From a virus: a stretch of DNA of 48,266 nucleotides. Location of the stretch: the IMG/VR virus record IMGVR_UViG_3300036980_000753, positions 1 to 48,266 of that record. The stretch is one strand, 5' to 3'. The position numbers and the translations under genes are program-made. Of the stretch, positions 26,731 to 35,405 are shown piece by piece. The stretch's first letter is position 1, and each line of letters starts with the position of its first letter. The notes under the pieces are model-generated. The model was not told the DNA's origin, ran no database searches, and saw only the letters and a list, made by a program, of their open reading frames with translations.

Positions 26731-29700
26731 TTATACGTCCAGTTTCTCGCCAGGCGGTAACATGATCAGGGTACAGCGGCAGTTGTGGCTCACGAATCCT
26801 TCTGCTATATAGTAACCACCAACCGTCTGGAGGTTATATACATGGCCCTCGAAAGAAGACCGGACATCGACACTGACCACATCATCAAGCTCCACTTCGA
26901 GGAGAAGCTCTCCGTCGCGCAGATCAGCAGGATGCTTAATGTCTCTAGAACTACCATCCTGGGACGTCTGAATAAATGTGGGCTCACTCAACGCGGAAGA
27001 TCCGAGGCTGAATTTCTCAAATGGAGCCGAATGGATAGGGAGCAAAGACTGGCCCAGGTTCGCGCTGCTAATACCAGGATGCGTGGCTCCGACCCCACCA
27101 AAAGACTGCTTATCTCCGCCAAGACTAGGTCTATCACCATGAGCAAAGTTGGATTCGGCGAGGCTGAAGTCCATGCCCACTTGAAAGCTCTTGGTTTCAA
27201 TTCCATTCTTCAGGGAGTCTGGGACACCTACAATATTGACATCATGTGTGGAACCGTCGCGGTGGAAATCAGCGCGTCCTCCGTCTACCCTCATAGGTGC
27301 AAAAGAAGACTTAAGCATCGAACTGAAAACTTGATCAATGCCGGATTTAATGTGATTTACGTCTCGCTGCGTAGTAGCCGCAGTATCGAACCCGCCTGTC
27401 TTGAATACCTTGGAGCCTTCGCTAAGGCTTCCCAGTCCGATCCAGCCTTTATCCGACAATACAGGATGATTAGGAGTTGCGGTAAGTTGCTTGCCGCTCT
27501 TGAATTTGACGGTAACCATTGGTCCCCTGTAGAACCTTTGGAATGATTTTTCCATACCAAGAGCTTCAACATTTGTGCCAGCTGGGAAACAGTTGATGAC
27601 CTCGTTAGCTGGCCCGCCTATGTCTCTAGGCCAGCGCAGGCCATTGCTGAAGTCATCTTCTGCCGCAACAGTTTCAGCCTGCAGCTCAACGTGAGAGTCA
27701 CGGACCCTAGCATCACCAGCGTTTAACCAGGCTTTGCGCAGTCCAGGTATAACTTTCTGTGCGTTCTTGAGAGCTGCACCCTGACCAATGGAGACAGCTG
27801 TTAGCGTCTCAGTCCTAGCTATTGTCTCTGCCTTGCCATTCGTAGCAGCAAAGTCGCCAAGCTCTTTAGCTACGCGAGTGATGATCTCACTGATGGATTC
27901 ACCCCGCTTAGTGCCTTGAGTGATTGAAGCCATAATAGATTCTGTTCTGGTGTCGCTGATCCTATCGAAGCTCTCGATGCCTCTTTCCACTAGGATCTCG
28001 CGGCGACCCTCTGCATCTTTCTTTCTAAGCACAGCAATCTTTTCTTTGTCTCTGTCGTTGATCACAAACTCTATCTGCGAGTCATAGCCGAGCTCAACCG
28101 TGCTAAGAAGAATATCGGTGTAGGCTTCTTTCCATTGCGTCTCTAGCTTAGCGAAGGCTTGGCTAAGCTCTCTTCGCAGCTGTGTCTTAGACTTAGGCTC
28201 TGCTGCCTTAGTCTCTATCAAAGATCTCTTGATTATGGGTTCAGCCAACTCAGCCATGCTTATTAGAGTATCTAGAGCAAGCTCATAGACCGCCTTGCCT
28301 TCATTGTCCTTTACGGTTTCTTCCATGCTTTTGACGTATCGATCTACCCAGCCAGCACTACGCTCATGCACGAAAGCTAGCAGGGTAGCTGCCTTGTCAA
28401 TCGTAGGTTGCTCTATAGATTGGACAGGCTCAACTTGCGGAGGTTGCTCTACAGCTGGAGCAACAGAACCGGGTTCAGGAGTCGGACTAAAGCCAGCTCC
28501 AACCGCACCCATGATCGCCTCAGCATCTTCTACACTAAGCGAGAAGGCTACCCGTAAGATCTGCACCCCAGTTTCGCGCGGGATCGAGCCTTGGGCTACT
28601 TGGTTAACGACGTCGACTAGGCTAGTGACCTGTGCGCCGTTGAGAGATTGCTGAGGAGTCGTGGAGGCTTGGTCTGCTACCTCTTGCGTGATGTCAGTCT
28701 CAGCTGCTGGTGCTGCTGGTGCTGCTGTCGGCTCGGCTGCCGGAAGAGCTAACAGAGGATTAGTGACAATGGCAGGAGCTACAGATGGGAACTTTGGAAC
28801 CGAGATGAAGGGAGCATCGTCGGCAGGAAGGCTGCTGGGCTTCAGATCCCAGACCTTCGACCTGACTTCATTAACTGACATGCCGCCATTGAGCATCTCC
28901 TTTGCTAGGAGAGCCTTAGATAGCTGGTCATCCTTAAGAGACTCAACATTCTCTAGATCAAACTTAAACGAGAAGTTTGAGCCTAGCTGCTTAGCAAAGA
29001 ACTTATTTAAGCCGCCTTCAATCATGCGGCAGGTGGGGATTAAAGTAGCTTCCCAGAAGTTCCTGAGAGCTGTCTTGTATTCCTCTGAGCCTAGAGAGCC
29101 TCCGGTCTGCAAACCGACTTCATGCTTAGGCACTTTGAGCAAGCTAAGGATGGTTTCCCTGTTGCTATTAATGAGATCTGTCAGCCGTTGATCTGCAATA
29201 GAATGCGAGACTGTCGTAGCCTTCATGCCCTTAGGCAGCCAAAGAGCTCGTCTAGCATTGCTTCTACCGGTATGAGCAAGCTCAAAAGACCGCGTCATTC
29301 TTAACGCCTGGTCTTCGTTAACCTGCTTATCCATCTCAATGATCATGCTTGGAGTAGCTTGTTTTAAATAAAACTGATTCAAATAGTCCTGGCTGTACCG
29401 ATTAAACAAAATGCTTTTTCGCCCAGCTAGGAATGGCGAGAGCCCGTGTATCAGGGAACCCGGGTTCGGTCTACGGATATGTATGATCGAATCAACAAGG
29501 TACTCAATGACCTGTTTCTTCTGCTCTTTGTCCTGGATATCACTATCGCCTGTCGCGAAGTTATAGGCTCTGATTGAGCCATCGCGATCAAAAGCAATGT
29601 CAGCCATAGATGCACGCAAAGAGACTAGCCATTGATTAGACTTTGAATACCAAAGGATGGCATTGCCGAGCAGTGCATAGTTGACGACGGTATTATACAT

Positions 29701-30072
29701 CCATGAGTGATAGTCCTGCATGGGATTCGGAGCCTGCACTAGATCATTTAGAGGATGCCCATCAGCATAGGCAATGGTCTCGACGCCATCCTCTAAGGTC
29801 TTGCGCACGACGTTTAAAGGCTGACTGCTGATCTTGTTGGCGATTAGGTCAACGACAATATAGACCCAGTCTTCAGTAAAAAAGAGTGATTCAATGGTGG
29901 ACATGTCAGCCCAGGCTTGAACCTCTTCTTTCCATAGATCGTTTACAGCATGGCTGGGATCAGCATCTCGAGAGAAGTTATAGCCTTTAAATTGCAGATC
30001 CTGCTCATCTGACTTGTCAGTTGCGATGTTGATATACTCATGCAGTTTGTTTTCGATGTCTTTATCACTCAT
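26731..30072 (-). CDS. Portal-MuF fusion protein interrupted by an intein
   Basis: 1113 residues before splicing, 843 after. AGGGG lies 7 nt before the ATG. Residues about 20-420 are an HK97-type portal: WVYIVVDLIANKISSQPLNV, YHSWMYNTVVNYALLGNAIL, IHIRRPNPGSLIHGLSPF and VPKHEVGLQTGG. A Pro/Ala/Thr-rich linker (about 430-570) and a helical region lead to a MuF head-morphogenesis domain (about 715-827): ISEIITRVAKELGDFA, IARTETLTAVSIGQGA, KAWLNAGDARVRDSH, then PANEVIN joining CRCTLIML across the intein. The intein starts at Cys828 and ends at Asn1097, leaving Cys1098 as the +1 nucleophile. Role: DNA entry ring plus an internal head protein. The order terminase, portal, protease, capsid is canonical. 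Confidence 0.92.
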   Translation of the reverse strand: MSDKDIENKLHEYINIATDKSDEQDLQFKGYNFSRDADPSHAVNDLWKEEVQAWADMSTIESLFFTEDWVYIVVDLIANKISSQPLNVVRKTLEDGVETIAYADGHPLNDLVQAPNPMQDYHSWMYNTVVNYALLGNAILWYSKSNQWLVSLRASMADIAFDRDGSIRAYNFATGDSDIQDKEQKKQVIEYLVDSIIHIRRPNPGSLIHGLSPFLAGRKSILFNRYSQDYLNQFYLKQATPSMIIEMDKQVNEDQALRMTRSFELAHTGRSNARRALWLPKGMKATTVSHSIADQRLTDLINSNRETILSLLKVPKHEVGLQTGGSLGSEEYKTALRNFWEATLIPTCRMIEGGLNKFFAKQLGSNFSFKFDLENVESLKDDQLSKALLAKEMLNGGMSVNEVRSKVWDLKPSSLPADDAPFISVPKFPSVAPAIVTNPLLALPAAEPTAAPAAPAAETDITQEVADQASTTPQQSLNGAQVTSLVDVVNQVAQGSIPRETGVQILRVAFSLSVEDAEAIMGAVGAGFSPTPEPGSVAPAVEQPPQVEPVQSIEQPTIDKAATLLAFVHERSAGWVDRYVKSMEETVKDNEGKAVYELALDTLISMAELAEPIIKRSLIETKAAEPKSKTQLRRELSQAFAKLETQWKEAYTDILLSTVELGYDSQIEFVINDRDKEKIAVLRKKDAEGRREILVERGIESFDRISDTRTESIMASITQGTKRGESISEIITRVAKELGDFAATNGKAETIARTETLTAVSIGQGAALKNAQKVIPGLRKAWLNAGDARVRDSHVELQAETVAAEDDFSNGLRWPRDIGGPANEVINCFPAGTNVEALGMEKSFQRFYRGPMVTVKFKSGKQLTATPNHPVLSDKGWIGLGSLSEGSKVFKTGGFDTAATTQRDVNHIKSGIDQVFSSMLKSSFAPMRVDGGRADFHRDGSTHDVNIVGVPDSLKNGIETKSFQVGMDFSLAESNFAHGDRPSLGGDKQSFGGVGATHPGISSANLGQSLLPIHSAPFEKFSLGSSALSEPTFIQTSQDGSSRDIKHPADLRDGELLLEVELDDVVSVDVRSSFEGHVYNLQTVGGYYIAEGFVSHNCRCTLIMLPPGEKLDV
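26783..26811 (+). promoter_or_regulatory. Possible sigma70-type promoter for antisense nuclease
   Basis: TTGTGG (26783-26788), 17-nt spacer, TATATA (26806-26811). It starts one base inside the intein edge and lies 31 nt before the nuclease ATG. Matches to consensus are 3/6 and 4/6, so it is weak. The -35 hexamer is antisense to the block G Ser-His-Asn codons and the -10 to Tyr-Tyr-Ile. Confidence 0.4.
26829..26833 (+). promoter_or_regulatory. Ribosome-binding site of antisense nuclease (GGAGG)
   Basis: GGAGG ends 8 nt before ATG 26842. This favours the ATG over an earlier in-frame GTG at 26785, which lacks a good site. The same bases, read on the minus strand, encode Leu-Gln of the intein block F motif NLQT. 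Confidence 0.8.
26842..27546 (+). CDS. HTH + Vsr/EDxHD-like homing endonuclease nested antisense in intein
   Basis: 234 residues encoded wholly within the intein DNA on the opposite strand. Residues about 10-45 are a helix-turn-helix (HIIKLHFEEKLSVAQISRML then NVSRTTILGRLNKCG). Residues about 105-180 resemble very-short-patch-repair/EDxHD nucleases: GFGEAEVHAHLKALGF, YNIDIMCGTVAVEISASSVY (acidic Asp, then V-E-I), Pro-His-Arg, and INAGFNVIYVSLR. The E...D...E...H pattern is consistent with this PD-(D/E)xK-related fold; exact catalytic residues need alignment. Codons are in register with the intein frame, so TTA, CTA and TCA are excluded throughout. Likely role: cleaving intein-free portal genes to drive homing. 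Strong RBS and coherent domains argue that it is real. Confidence 0.88.
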   Translation: MALERRPDIDTDHIIKLHFEEKLSVAQISRMLNVSRTTILGRLNKCGLTQRGRSEAEFLKWSRMDREQRLAQVRAANTRMRGSDPTKRLLISAKTRSITMSKVGFGEAEVHAHLKALGFNSILQGVWDTYNIDIMCGTVAVEISASSVYPHRCKRRLKHRTENLINAGFNVIYVSLRSSRSIEPACLEYLGAFAKASQSDPAFIRQYRMIRSCGKLLAALEFDGNHWSPVEPLE

Positions 30073-30081
30073 CGCAATCCC

Positions 30082-32511
30082 CTAATTAAATGGGCTGTCA
30101 TTGTCAGAATCACTGATTAAATCTCTGTAGTATCTGTCTAGGTCCATAAGCCTACGATCCTTTGGCAGATCGTCTAAGAAGCCTACTTCAAATGTACCTT
30201 GGTTATACTCTGACGCGGCAGCATTGGCTAAAGCTAAGGCGATCACAATATCATCATGGGAACCGGATGAAGCATTATAGCGCATCATCCCGGTATCGGA
30301 GACTGTTACCTCATATGAGGCTAACTCTGAAAGTAATAGAGGCCAATTAGGTAGCTCTATCTCTTTCTTTTCGAAGGTCAGCCCCAGGCCATTGATGACA
30401 GAGGCTTTAGACTGATTTGAGAAAGTGAAGCCCTGAAAAGGCATAGGGAAATGGCCAAGCATGTCATCTAGAGCTTCACCTACACCAGTCTTGTCATGCC
30501 AGATGGTGCCAATAGATTTGAAGTTCTTGCTGAATTGAAAGAGCTCTTTCACAGCTGTCACGTAAGAGATGCCATGGAACCGTTGGAAGCCTACAACCTT
30601 CCTTGGCATCGTGTTGTAGTCGATGGCTAGGAAGACTGCGTAATCCCGCTGCTTAGCCCAGTCTACGCCTATCACAACGTCTGCGTTCTTAGCCGACTGG
30701 TGTATCCAGTGCTGGCTAGTAGAGCCATCGAACTCTAGCTCTAACCCTCTAACGCAATCAGGGACTCCCAAGAATACAGATGACTCTTCGCAGAACTCAG
30801 CTAAATAGAATTGGCGAAACAGTCTATCTGGTAAATCTCTGCGAGCAGCATCTATGACGCTCTGATGAACCATAGGGTTGGCTGTCGTGGGAGCATGGAT
30901 AGCCAGGTACTTGGGATTCTTACCAGCTTTCAGAGCCCACTCCATCTCTGCCTTGCATTCCATGTACCGCTTGTAGAACCAGTTCTTTCCTAGTGGCGTA
31001 CTAATCCACATAGAAGGACCACGGGTAAAGGTCTGTGTAGTCCTAGCTGAGACGTAGGCTTGGTAAGGCATCTTAGCTGCCTCATCCCCTATCTGCCCGT
31101 GAATGGCTGAGCCCTCTAGATCCATTGGGTTCTGCGTGTGCATGAACTCAATCTCTGAATGGAGATAGGGGAATTTGACAACCATCTTTGTCTGCAGGAA
31201 TTCAGAGTGAGGAGCTGGCGGTACGATCTTACCGAAGTAGTCCATACCGATCTTAGCCTGCCGATAGATGGGAGCTAGCCATCTCCACTTAGCAGAGCGC
31301 TTGAGCATAGCGGCGTTAGTAAGACAGGTAGCAGCCCCTATCGAGTTGTGGGTAGGTATGCAGGCTTCTGTAGTGAGGAAAAGATGGCTAGGGTTCTCTA
31401 CCTGTATGCACATCACAGGAACCGATGAGATCTTTTCTACGTTTAAGATAGTGCGCTGCTTAGACTTAAGCCCTGTAGTCTTTCGCAGCCTGTCTGCTTT
31501 GCGCTTCAAGCGGAACACTGGAAAGTCTGTACTGAACCAGACCCGGTAGCACCACTGCTTATCTACGCCGTTTAAGCGCCCGATCCGTCCAGCCCTGTTG
31601 ACCTTGATACCTAAGCTCATTGCCAATAGAGCGACAGCATCAGCAAGGCTTTTGTTAGTATTGTCAAAGCAGCAGTTCCCACGCTTATCAACCGTGCCTT
31701 CAGTGTCCATCAAGGCTTGTAGCAAGGCTATACGGTCTTTGACGCTTGAGACTAAATATTCTTGAGGCACATGTTTATTGCCACACAATCTATGTTGATT
31801 GAGTAGCGTAGTTAAACCTTTAACTCTCCATTTCCAAAGGTCCCCGACTTTATCGACAGTAAAACCTTCATCCCTAATATAGTCAGCTAGTTCATGGTCT
31901 GGTTTAGTATAGGAACCGCCACCAGTATCGCCATCCCCGAGCCAGACGCCTAGAGTATATGGCGGGATAGGCAGCTCTCTCTTAGTAAATTCAAGCGGAG
32001 CTGACACATTTGTAACAGCGTGGTTAGGCCTGGATGTTCCACCCATTGCAATGGTCTGAGTTTCAAAAATTTCTAAAGTCGTGCGTTTCCTTGGTTTCGC
32101 TTCTGTCGTCTTGCAGCGGTCGTTAGGCGAGAGAGCTCTAGCCATATTCTTCCGCTCTGTATGCGTAGTAGTCACCCAATCATGTTCAGCATCTGCAATG
32201 ACTTCAGTACCGTCTGAAAAGGTCAGCTTGTAGCAATCGTGGTCATACATGAGATCGGTGGCGTATACGACGCGGGTAGGCTTGCCATGCTCATCAAAGA
32301 CAAAGTCACCTTTCTTAATCTCGCAGAGTGGGATATAACCTCTATCGGGAGTTGGGGTAAGTGTCTGATAATATTCGGCTTTCCCAAATTTTGTGCCGCA
32401 TGCCACAAAAGTTTCTGCCACATCGCCATAGAGAAAGGCTCGCATGATGAGCTCTTGCTTACGACTGTGTGGCTTAGGCGGATGGATCTTGACCTGTGCT
32501 ATATCGCTCAT
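30082..32511 (-). CDS. terL: Terminase large subunit interrupted by a class 3 intein
   Basis: Start chosen at ATG 32511, which overlaps the small terminase stop (ATGA); an in-frame ATG exists at 32535. 809 residues, about 464 after splicing. The Walker A motif CGTKFGK/SIGAATC is split by the intein immediately after its Lys. Downstream are LEGSAIHGQIGDEAAKM (Walker B with Asp-Glu), a motor segment ISTPLGKNWFYKRYMECK, and an RNase H-like nuclease with DVVIGVDWAKQRDYAVFLAI, TIWHDKTGVGEALDDML and SGSHDDIVIALALANAA carrying the acidic triad. It uses ATP to pump DNA into the prohead and cuts it. Without splicing the ATPase would be dead. Confidence 0.93.
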   Translation of the reverse strand: MSDIAQVKIHPPKPHSRKQELIMRAFLYGDVAETFVACGTKFGKAEYYQTLTPTPDRGYIPLCEIKKGDFVFDEHGKPTRVVYATDLMYDHDCYKLTFSDGTEVIADAEHDWVTTTHTERKNMARALSPNDRCKTTEAKPRKRTTLEIFETQTIAMGGTSRPNHAVTNVSAPLEFTKRELPIPPYTLGVWLGDGDTGGGSYTKPDHELADYIRDEGFTVDKVGDLWKWRVKGLTTLLNQHRLCGNKHVPQEYLVSSVKDRIALLQALMDTEGTVDKRGNCCFDNTNKSLADAVALLAMSLGIKVNRAGRIGRLNGVDKQWCYRVWFSTDFPVFRLKRKADRLRKTTGLKSKQRTILNVEKISSVPVMCIQVENPSHLFLTTEACIPTHNSIGAATCLTNAAMLKRSAKWRWLAPIYRQAKIGMDYFGKIVPPAPHSEFLQTKMVVKFPYLHSEIEFMHTQNPMDLEGSAIHGQIGDEAAKMPYQAYVSARTTQTFTRGPSMWISTPLGKNWFYKRYMECKAEMEWALKAGKNPKYLAIHAPTTANPMVHQSVIDAARRDLPDRLFRQFYLAEFCEESSVFLGVPDCVRGLELEFDGSTSQHWIHQSAKNADVVIGVDWAKQRDYAVFLAIDYNTMPRKVVGFQRFHGISYVTAVKELFQFSKNFKSIGTIWHDKTGVGEALDDMLGHFPMPFQGFTFSNQSKASVINGLGLTFEKKEIELPNWPLLLSELASYEVTVSDTGMMRYNASSGSHDDIVIALALANAAASEYNQGTFEVGFLDDLPKDRRLMDLDRYYRDLISDSDNDSPFN
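31345..32379 (-). mobile_element. Class 3 intein (345 aa) with LAGLIDADG endonuclease in terL
   Basis: Begins at Ala (AEYYQTLTPTPDRG), not Cys or Ser, and ends P-T-H-N before Ser+1. It carries the class 3 Trp/Cys/Thr triad: Trp68 in DAEHDWVTT (block B, also lacking the usual Thr), Cys324 in VPVMCIQVENPSH (block F), and Thr343 just before His-Asn (block G). The endonuclease motifs are LGVWLGDG (143-150) and LLQALMDTEG (219-228), with likely acidic residues Asp149 and Glu227. In class 3 inteins Cys324 would form the first branched intermediate. Insertion is in the ATP-binding P-loop, a typical conserved target. Confidence 0.9.
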
Positions 32512-32984
32512 TGGTCGTCCACGCTGAGCAGGCATTGCAGATCTTCAATTGGATCTATCTCAGCTTCACATGCTTCAGCTTCAATCACTTCCGGCTTAAG
32601 TAGATCCTGTAACAGCCTGCCGTCTTCCGTCATAGACGTAACGTAGACAGTCTGAGTAGCTACTGTCACATCAATCTTGTCCTTGACCTTGCCGATGCGG
32701 CTGCGATCTAAGATGAAGTTCAGCTTGCTGTGATCGCCTTCTGTGTAAGCCTTGAGCCATATGGAGATGACAGACTCTTCTAACAGCGTTAGATGTCCTG
32801 ACTCTTTTAGCTCCATGATCTGAGATAGCGGAAGGTCTGCCAGCTTATCGATCATATCCTTCAGCACTCTCGGCGATAGCTGTCTCAGCTTCTGAATTTC
32901 TGGTGGCGCTTTTGGTCTACCGAGGGGATTCAAGACCTGTCCTGGCTTGATATCTCTGCCACCTGTTTTGATTCCCTTAGCCAT
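32508..32984 (-). CDS. terS: Terminase small subunit
   Basis: 158 residues. The N-terminus GGRDIKPGQVLNPLGRPK is the signature of a phage small-terminase/DUF5681-like family. It is followed by helices KLRQLSPRVLKDMIDKLADL and TLLEESVISIWLKAYTEGDH, LNFILDRSRIGKVKDKID, and an acidic C-terminus (EACEAEIDPIEDLQ). It precedes and overlaps terL. Role: DNA recognition and loading of the motor. A ribosome site is weak. Confidence 0.8.
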   Translation of the reverse strand: MAKGIKTGGRDIKPGQVLNPLGRPKAPPEIQKLRQLSPRVLKDMIDKLADLPLSQIMELKESGHLTLLEESVISIWLKAYTEGDHSKLNFILDRSRIGKVKDKIDVTVATQTVYVTSMTEDGRLLQDLLKPEVIEAEACEAEIDPIEDLQCLLSVDDQ

Positions 32985-34367: not shown

Positions 34368-35312
34368 TTATTCTAAGTCTACGGAATCTTCATTCCGACT
34401 CCGAAAGTAAGCCCTAATCTCATCGCGCAAACGAATACTGCGTAGCGTCATATCATCATGAAGCTGATAAACGCCATAGCTATTGCGTTTGAGATCACCA
34501 TCTGGACGATAGTCGTTGTTGATTAGGATCTGCCAGCGGTCCCAATACCTTCTGTCTTTCTTCTTGCCATGGAACATATGCATCAAGCTACCTGGCACAT
34601 ATCCAACATCACGACGAAGCGAGCTCCAGCAGCGATCTTGATAGTCCATGATGCTTTTCTGATACGCGGAACTTGTTTTCGGATGAAACGACAGCTCTGC
34701 TTTTCCGCAAAATGAGAGCGCCATATGTCTGTCACCAGCCCCGAGGACGCCTTTGTCAAAAAGGCCACCGATGTCGTCAATTGCCTCACGCCTTGCCGCC
34801 CAGGCATAGCCCGGATGCCACACGCCGTATGCTGTTTCGGGATGGATCGCGCCCTTCTTAATGTACTGTCCCATAAAAGATTTATGCATCTGTAGGACTT
34901 GGTTCTCCGGACCAAGATCAATTGCCGTATCAAACATTTGTACGATCTTGTAGACCTGCAGCTGGTGGAGTGTGTCGCTGATCCAGTCTTTCTGCAGGAA
35001 TTCTACGTCTGCGTCAATCCACGCAACCGTTTCCCAATCGTCTGGAAGCCTTGATATGGCTATGTTGAGACAGTTCTCTTTATGCCAAAGTTCGTCCCAA
35101 TGCCGCAGCTGAATGTGCCTAGGATTGTTTGCGTCTGTGATAGCAAAAGGCCTGTCACCGAGCTGGAGCTCACAGACCCATAGGTTAGGAGTGTGCTGAT
35201 GGATGTACTTTTCAAAGTTTTTGAACAACCTGTACCTTGAAGAGAACATAGCCGGGTTGCTAATCATCGTAACCACATTGAACTTGTCTCTATCGAAGGA
35301 CTCAAAACGCAT
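34368..35312 (-). CDS. GT-A-type glycosyltransferase
   Basis: 314 residues from ATG 35312. The N-terminus FNVVTMISNPAMFSSRYRLF and ENCLNIAISRLPDDWETVAW lead into the metal- and sugar-nucleotide-binding DxD in WIDADVEFL (about 99-107). Later there is GVWHPGYAWAARREAIDDIG (about 165-184), GAGDRHMALSF (a typical Asp-His acceptor-side motif), and HMFHGKKKDRRYWDRWQIL. This matches phage-encoded glycosyltransferases of large siphoviruses. Substrate unknown: virion glycoprotein, host surface or modified DNA are all possible. It is transcribed towards the terminase cluster. Confidence 0.8.
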   Translation of the reverse strand: MRFESFDRDKFNVVTMISNPAMFSSRYRLFKNFEKYIHQHTPNLWVCELQLGDRPFAITDANNPRHIQLRHWDELWHKENCLNIAISRLPDDWETVAWIDADVEFLQKDWISDTLHQLQVYKIVQMFDTAIDLGPENQVLQMHKSFMGQYIKKGAIHPETAYGVWHPGYAWAARREAIDDIGGLFDKGVLGAGDRHMALSFCGKAELSFHPKTSSAYQKSIMDYQDRCWSSLRRDVGYVPGSLMHMFHGKKKDRRYWDRWQILINNDYRPDGDLKRNSYGVYQLHDDMTLRSIRLRDEIRAYFRSRNEDSVDLE

Positions 35313-35405
35313 CAAATCACCCCAAGGTTCGAACTATTTAGCCACCTAACTGACTTTTGATATGAACGATAAGCGCAGAAACCGATTGGGATTTGATTCG
35401 TAAGT

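Follow-up and report, generated by a model that had tools for sequence, protein, structure and literature searches.

The terL gene and its insert

The window, by which we mean the whole stretch of 48,266 nucleotides that was analysed (positions 1 to 48,266 of IMG/VR virus record IMGVR_UViG_3300036980_000753), contains a gene for a terminase large subunit (TerL) that is identified by its single open frame, its matches to PHROG TerL families and its intein-free relatives. The gene, its parts and the gene that overlaps its start are as follows.

30082-32535, minus strand: terL, encoding a precursor of 817 aa (472 aa without the intein)
32380-32535, minus strand: N-extein, TerL residues 1-52, ending in the Walker A residues GTKFGK
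31345-32379, minus strand: intein of 345 aa, Ala1-Asn345 (TerL residues 53-397), assigned to class 3 from its translation, alignments, masked profiles and PDB matches
30082-31344, minus strand: C-extein from Ser+1 (SIGAATC...), with the remaining ATPase domain, the Walker B-type QIGDEAA and the nuclease domain
32508-32984, minus strand: 158-aa gene overlapping the terL start, a TerS candidate by position

The ends of the gene at 30082-32535 matched PHROG terminase large subunit families (E 3.5e-36 to 1e-4), and the joined 472-aa extein matched TerL structures of the Thermus phage P74-26/G20c group. When the joined extein was aligned with four TerL proteins, G47, G51, K52, D139, E140, D280, D416 and D417 were invariant. 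On this alignment and the structure matches, the joined extein has a Walker A motif, a DE-type Walker B motif and the acidic residues of the nuclease. The 158-aa gene at 32508-32984 gave a weak DUF5681 match (E 0.068) that lies below the cut-off.

A sequence-only reading of this DNA had placed an intein at 31345-32379, and translation of these coordinates gave exactly 345 residues, Ala1 to Asn345, beginning A-E-Y-Y and finishing P-T-H-N. The flanks read ...GTKFGK and SIGAA..., so that the insertion separates the Walker A Lys from the Ser that follows it (GTKFGK^S). The same reading was thus correct that the insert splits the TerL Walker A motif, and fair in proposing that the ATPase would be inactive before splicing.

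Assignment to class 3

The key residues of the intein are Ala1, His66, Trp68, Cys324, Thr343, His344, Asn345 and the flanking Ser+1, and the codons of its internal and C-terminal blocks lie at these positions.

32176-32184, minus strand: block B codons for His66 (B:10), Asp67 and Trp68 (B:12, W of the WCT triplet)
31408-31410, minus strand: Cys324 codon (F:4, C of the WCT triplet), the predicted branch-point nucleophile
31345-31353, minus strand: Thr343 (G:5, T of the WCT triplet), His344 and Asn345

We compared these residues with the class 3 features defined in PMC5050341, PMC3196547 and PMC7891396. Position 1 is Ala and lacks a Cys, Ser or Thr nucleophile, the WCT triplet W68/C324/T343 aligned with those of 26 relatives and of the PDB entries 6rix and 6bs8, and block B His66 (B:10), the terminal Asn345 and a Ser nucleophile at +1 are all present. 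The block B string DAEHDW occurs as the sequence-only reading had written it. Among the 26 class 3 relatives that we fetched and aligned, His66, Cys324, Thr343 and Asn345 were kept in every one, Trp68 in 25 and Ala1 in 20. Residues 2-5 (within 32365-32379, minus strand) are EYYQ while most relatives have L[AS]LD, making the N-terminal junction divergent.

In sequence searches of the PDB the top matches were the class 3 inteins MchDnaB1 (6rix, 4.5e-23) and MsmDnaB1 (6bs8, 2.2e-20), with the wild-type class 1 intein gp41-1 far behind at only 0.37. We then built leave-one-out profiles for class 3 and class 1 in which the A1, W, C and T columns were masked in all rows, with the class 1 references Npu DnaE, Mxe GyrA and gp41-1 checked against their PDB sequences. 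The terL intein scored 124.8 bits on the masked class 3 profile versus 50.4 bits on that of class 1; on the class 3 profile, class 3 rows scored 81-193 bits and class 1 rows 12-68 bits. A tree of the splicing blocks that included the diagnostic columns placed the terL intein within class 3 (split support 63/95). When the four diagnostic columns were taken out, class 3 did not come out as one clade, in part because of a misalignment of the MuF inteins, whose N-terminal blocks were shifted against those of the other rows. For that reason we used the masked profiles as the class test, to which the tree adds little.

The resemblance to class 3 could in principle be convergence at W, C and T in a class 1 or class 2 intein, and the class 1 intein gp41-1 does also end in THN and reaches 68 bits on the class 3 profile. 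We regard this as vanishingly unlikely, as the masked profile, the PDB matches and the whole-length similarity, nuclease included, all favour class 3, and position 1 lacks a Cys or Ser. Clustering with class 1 inteins had been named beforehand as the outcome that would overturn the class assignment; the comparison was run, and class 3 held in the PDB ranking, in the tree with diagnostic columns and in the masked profiles. With the class residues, the PDB matches and the masked profiles in agreement, the terL intein is, as judged from its sequence, well supported as a member of class 3.

The generic intein profiles PF14890 and TIGR01445 miss the terL intein and detect the neighbouring MuF intein weakly. 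Annotation pipelines that rely on these two profiles may label such genes plain TerL.

The nuclease domain

The sequence-only reading had also recognised a LAGLIDADG nuclease within the intein, and Pfam matches above the gathering scores (LAGLIDADG_3, 3.2e-6; Hom_end, 1.7e-4) bore this out, together with two motifs and a structure model.

31456-32007, minus strand: LAGLIDADG homing endonuclease domain, intein residues ~125-308
31930-31959, minus strand: LAGLIDADG motif 1, YTLGVWLGDG, with predicted catalytic Asp149
31696-31725, minus strand: LAGLIDADG motif 2, LLQALMDTEG, residues 219-228, with the acid Glu227 (31699-31701)

Each of the two motifs carries a predicted catalytic acidic residue, D149 in the first and E227 in the second. 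The first is Asp in 26/26 relatives, and the position of Glu227 is Asp in 24/26. In the structure model of the intein, which has a middling pLDDT of 62.7 and falls below 50 at residues 65-126 and 332-345, residues 125-308 matched the PI-SceI nuclease (Z 14.4). With respect to the HINT fold, the splicing halves of the model, over residues 3-339, aligned with MchDnaB1 (6rix) with Z 7.8 and 42% identity, model confidence being low near the active site. Glu is known at the second LAGLIDADG acid of active enzymes, for example Glu117 of I-DmoI, and the I-DmoI E117A mutant structure was among the structure-comparison matches of the intein model. Since Glu occurs there in active enzymes such as I-DmoI, the nuclease of the terL intein may well be active.

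The divergence at residues 2-5 and at Glu227 is what might be expected if the intein were past splicing, decayed like that of Arthrobacter Arth_1007, with TerL either dead or supplied by a co-infecting phage; inactive class 3 inteins are on record (PMC3196547). We consider such decay very improbable. All catalytic splicing residues of the terL intein are intact, whereas Arth_1007 lost Cys F:4 and His B:10, and the 817-aa frame is open with the invariant acids of the C-extein retained.

Relatives without the insert

Extein relatives were gathered from viral and genome contigs, yielding 159 loci with a TerL match. The junction was uninterrupted in 140 of these, 19 did not reach the site and none held an insert, counts that do not amount to an insert frequency for this lineage because loci were ranked by their best continuous match, which favours intein-free copies. 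The 11 nearest relatives (L039-L049; 37-51% identity) have VACGTKFGK^S or a near variant of it there, without the gain or loss of a single residue. The intein-free terL with the target sequence that the sequence-only reading had called for was thus found. As the relatives run through GK^S unbroken, the intein can be delimited to the residue, and its occurrence is sporadic. The intein had no match when searched against the records of the 11 nearest relatives, mostly short fragments. Among the viral and genome contig relatives, an empty terL allele above 51% protein identity was not found; of 40 bases around the site, the closest empty alleles have 21-29 in common with the terL flanks. Whole-length similarity to other inteins and the empty sites in relatives rule out chance or artefact as the origin of the intein call.

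The exteins that carry the relatives of the intein match this TerL extein weakly or not at all. Extein relatives without the intein, and intein relatives with distant or unrelated exteins, form the pattern expected of a mobile element. No donor composition signature was found: G+C is 0.474 in the intein versus 0.484 in the extein, and GC3 is 0.478 versus 0.520. Given this similarity, there is no compositional sign of recent foreign origin.

Inteins at the same site in other phages

Relatives of the intein were found by tblastn in 503 of 50,697 phage records, with E values of whole-intein matches going down to 2e-50 (38% identity across 99% of the intein). A class 3 intein lies at the TerL P-loop Lys^Ser/Thr junction in at least 19 of the 26 loci that we read, some of them near-copies of each other. 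The hosts of this junction are phages of Escherichia, Synechococcus, Microcystis, Clavibacter, Mycobacterium, Gordonia, Vibrio, Stenotrophomonas and Klebsiella, along with IMG/VR contigs.

Closest in kind are the TerL Walker A class 3 inteins of Escherichia phage kvi, Synechococcus phage B23, Clavibacter phage CMP1, Microcystis phage Mwe-JY05, mycobacteriophage Eureka, Vibrio phage 489E54-1 and Stenotrophomonas phage SOVA965. They share with the terL intein the GK^S/T junction, the WCT triplet, a two-motif LAGLIDADG nuclease and a similar length, at ~31-39% identity over 96-99%. The present copy differs from these seven in its EYYQ at residues 2-5 and its Glu227, and their TerL exteins are distant from this TerL or unrecognisable by BLAST. 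The DnaB1 inteins of Mycobacterium chimaera and M. smegmatis (6rix, 6bs8) also have the WCT triplet and a PTHN end, with a splicing domain ~40-45% identical to that of the terL intein; unlike it, they are nuclease-free mini-inteins in a replicative helicase.

Inteins of this kind have been described before. Mycobacteriophage TerL inteins TerL1-a to -e are described in PMC5050341 (2016): TerL1-a separates the Lys of Walker A from the Thr, TerL1-c, -d and -e are class 3 at other TerL sites, and splicing and cutting were demonstrated for some of the mycobacteriophage TerL inteins. TerL1-a to -e share the TerL host with the present intein and differ from it in TerL family and phages. The TerL intein sequence of the cluster E phage Eureka shows the WCT triplet. 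In phiCbK TerL, a 341-aa intein with Pro1 and a His-Asn end lies between adjacent conserved Lys and Ser residues (PMC3556154, 2012); compared by description, it has the same Lys/Ser position and no Cys or Ser at residue 1, and differs in its Pro1 and its Caulobacter phage. A count made in 2020 gave 1701 class 3 inteins, 82.5% of them with LAGLIDADG motifs (PMC7891396). Both inteins of Microcystis phage Mic1 TerL (L036:1-2859) start with Cys and sit elsewhere, and are by sequence class 1, a different kind from the terL intein.

The sequence-only reading had suggested that class 3 inteins mostly belong to helicases and that a copy in the P-loop of a terminase would stand out. The data support neither view: TerL is the host of most of the class 3 relatives that we fetched, the intein has the same junction in at least 19 of the 26 loci, and TerL P-loop cases are published, in PMC5050341 among others. 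We had considered the P-loop terminase intein as a novelty, which the same-site relatives, PMC5050341 and PMC3556154 rule out. Inserts of the same kind at the same site are already known in many phages, and the terL intein is an ordinary one.

Neighbouring genes and possible regulation

The terL gene is adjoined by a portal-MuF fusion gene (26731-30072) that carries an intein of its own, recognised by its Cys1, TPNH, His-Asn and Cys+1.

26782-27591, minus strand: second intein, class 1, 270 aa, in the N^CRC motif of the MuF part of portal-MuF

No LAGLIDADG match was found in this MuF intein. Phages of Salmonella, Escherichia and Gordonia carry similar MuF inteins, and the one in phage Snoke is annotated as an intein. 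A search of the viral contigs with single-sequence patterns returned no whole portal-MuF relatives, yet portal-MuF lies beside terL in the 11 nearest relatives, in which the gene pair is kept and both inserts are missing. At 34368-35315 (minus strand) the window encodes a 315-aa protein with a WIDADVEF stretch and the look of a GT-A glycosyltransferase, without a Pfam or PHROG family match; in Tunturiibacter phage Tunturi_4 an annotated glycosyltransferase also adjoins terL.

As both inteins break packaging or head genes, we asked whether the terL insert might be retained as a regulatory switch, the speed of its splicing, perhaps redox-sensitive via Cys324, timing the start of packaging, possibly with the MuF intein. 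A class 3 DnaB intein is reported to act as an oxidative stress sensor (PMC6195587), and a regulatory role has been proposed for the Mic1 TerL inteins (PMC7156551). Both inserts are missing from the 11 nearest relatives, which shows that such phages can do without either, and no regulatory feature was found; a switch is therefore improbable in our view. Highly unlikely, too, is a joint post-translational checkpoint in which the class 3 TerL intein and the class 1 portal-MuF intein would delay docking of the motor on the portal until both had been spliced. We found no evidence of a joint function of the two inteins. The presence of a class 1 intein in the gene next to terL suggests instead that different inteins accumulate in packaging and head genes independently of one another.

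Discussion

The insert in this phage TerL is very probably a class 3 intein that is mobile and encodes a LAGLIDADG nuclease of its own, seated between Lys52 and Ser of Walker A. We infer splicing, DNA cleavage and homing of the terL intein by analogy. By comparison with studied class 3 inteins, His66 would activate Cys324, which would attack the Lys52-Ala1 peptide bond to give the block F branched thioester; the acyl group would pass to Ser+1, and Asn345 would then cyclise. Joining of the exteins would give GTKFGKSIGAA and restore the ATP-binding loop. The nuclease would cut insert-free terL alleles, into which repair would copy the intein. The P-loop is a favoured site because the DNA is conserved there and because imprecise loss of the insert would destroy packaging.

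The finding opens no new question. Class 3 inteins in the TerL P-loop form a widespread family, to which it adds one copy, from a lineage of uncultured phages in which the closest sequenced relatives are free of the insert. It agrees with phages being a main reservoir of class 3 inteins and the P-loop a recurrent target.
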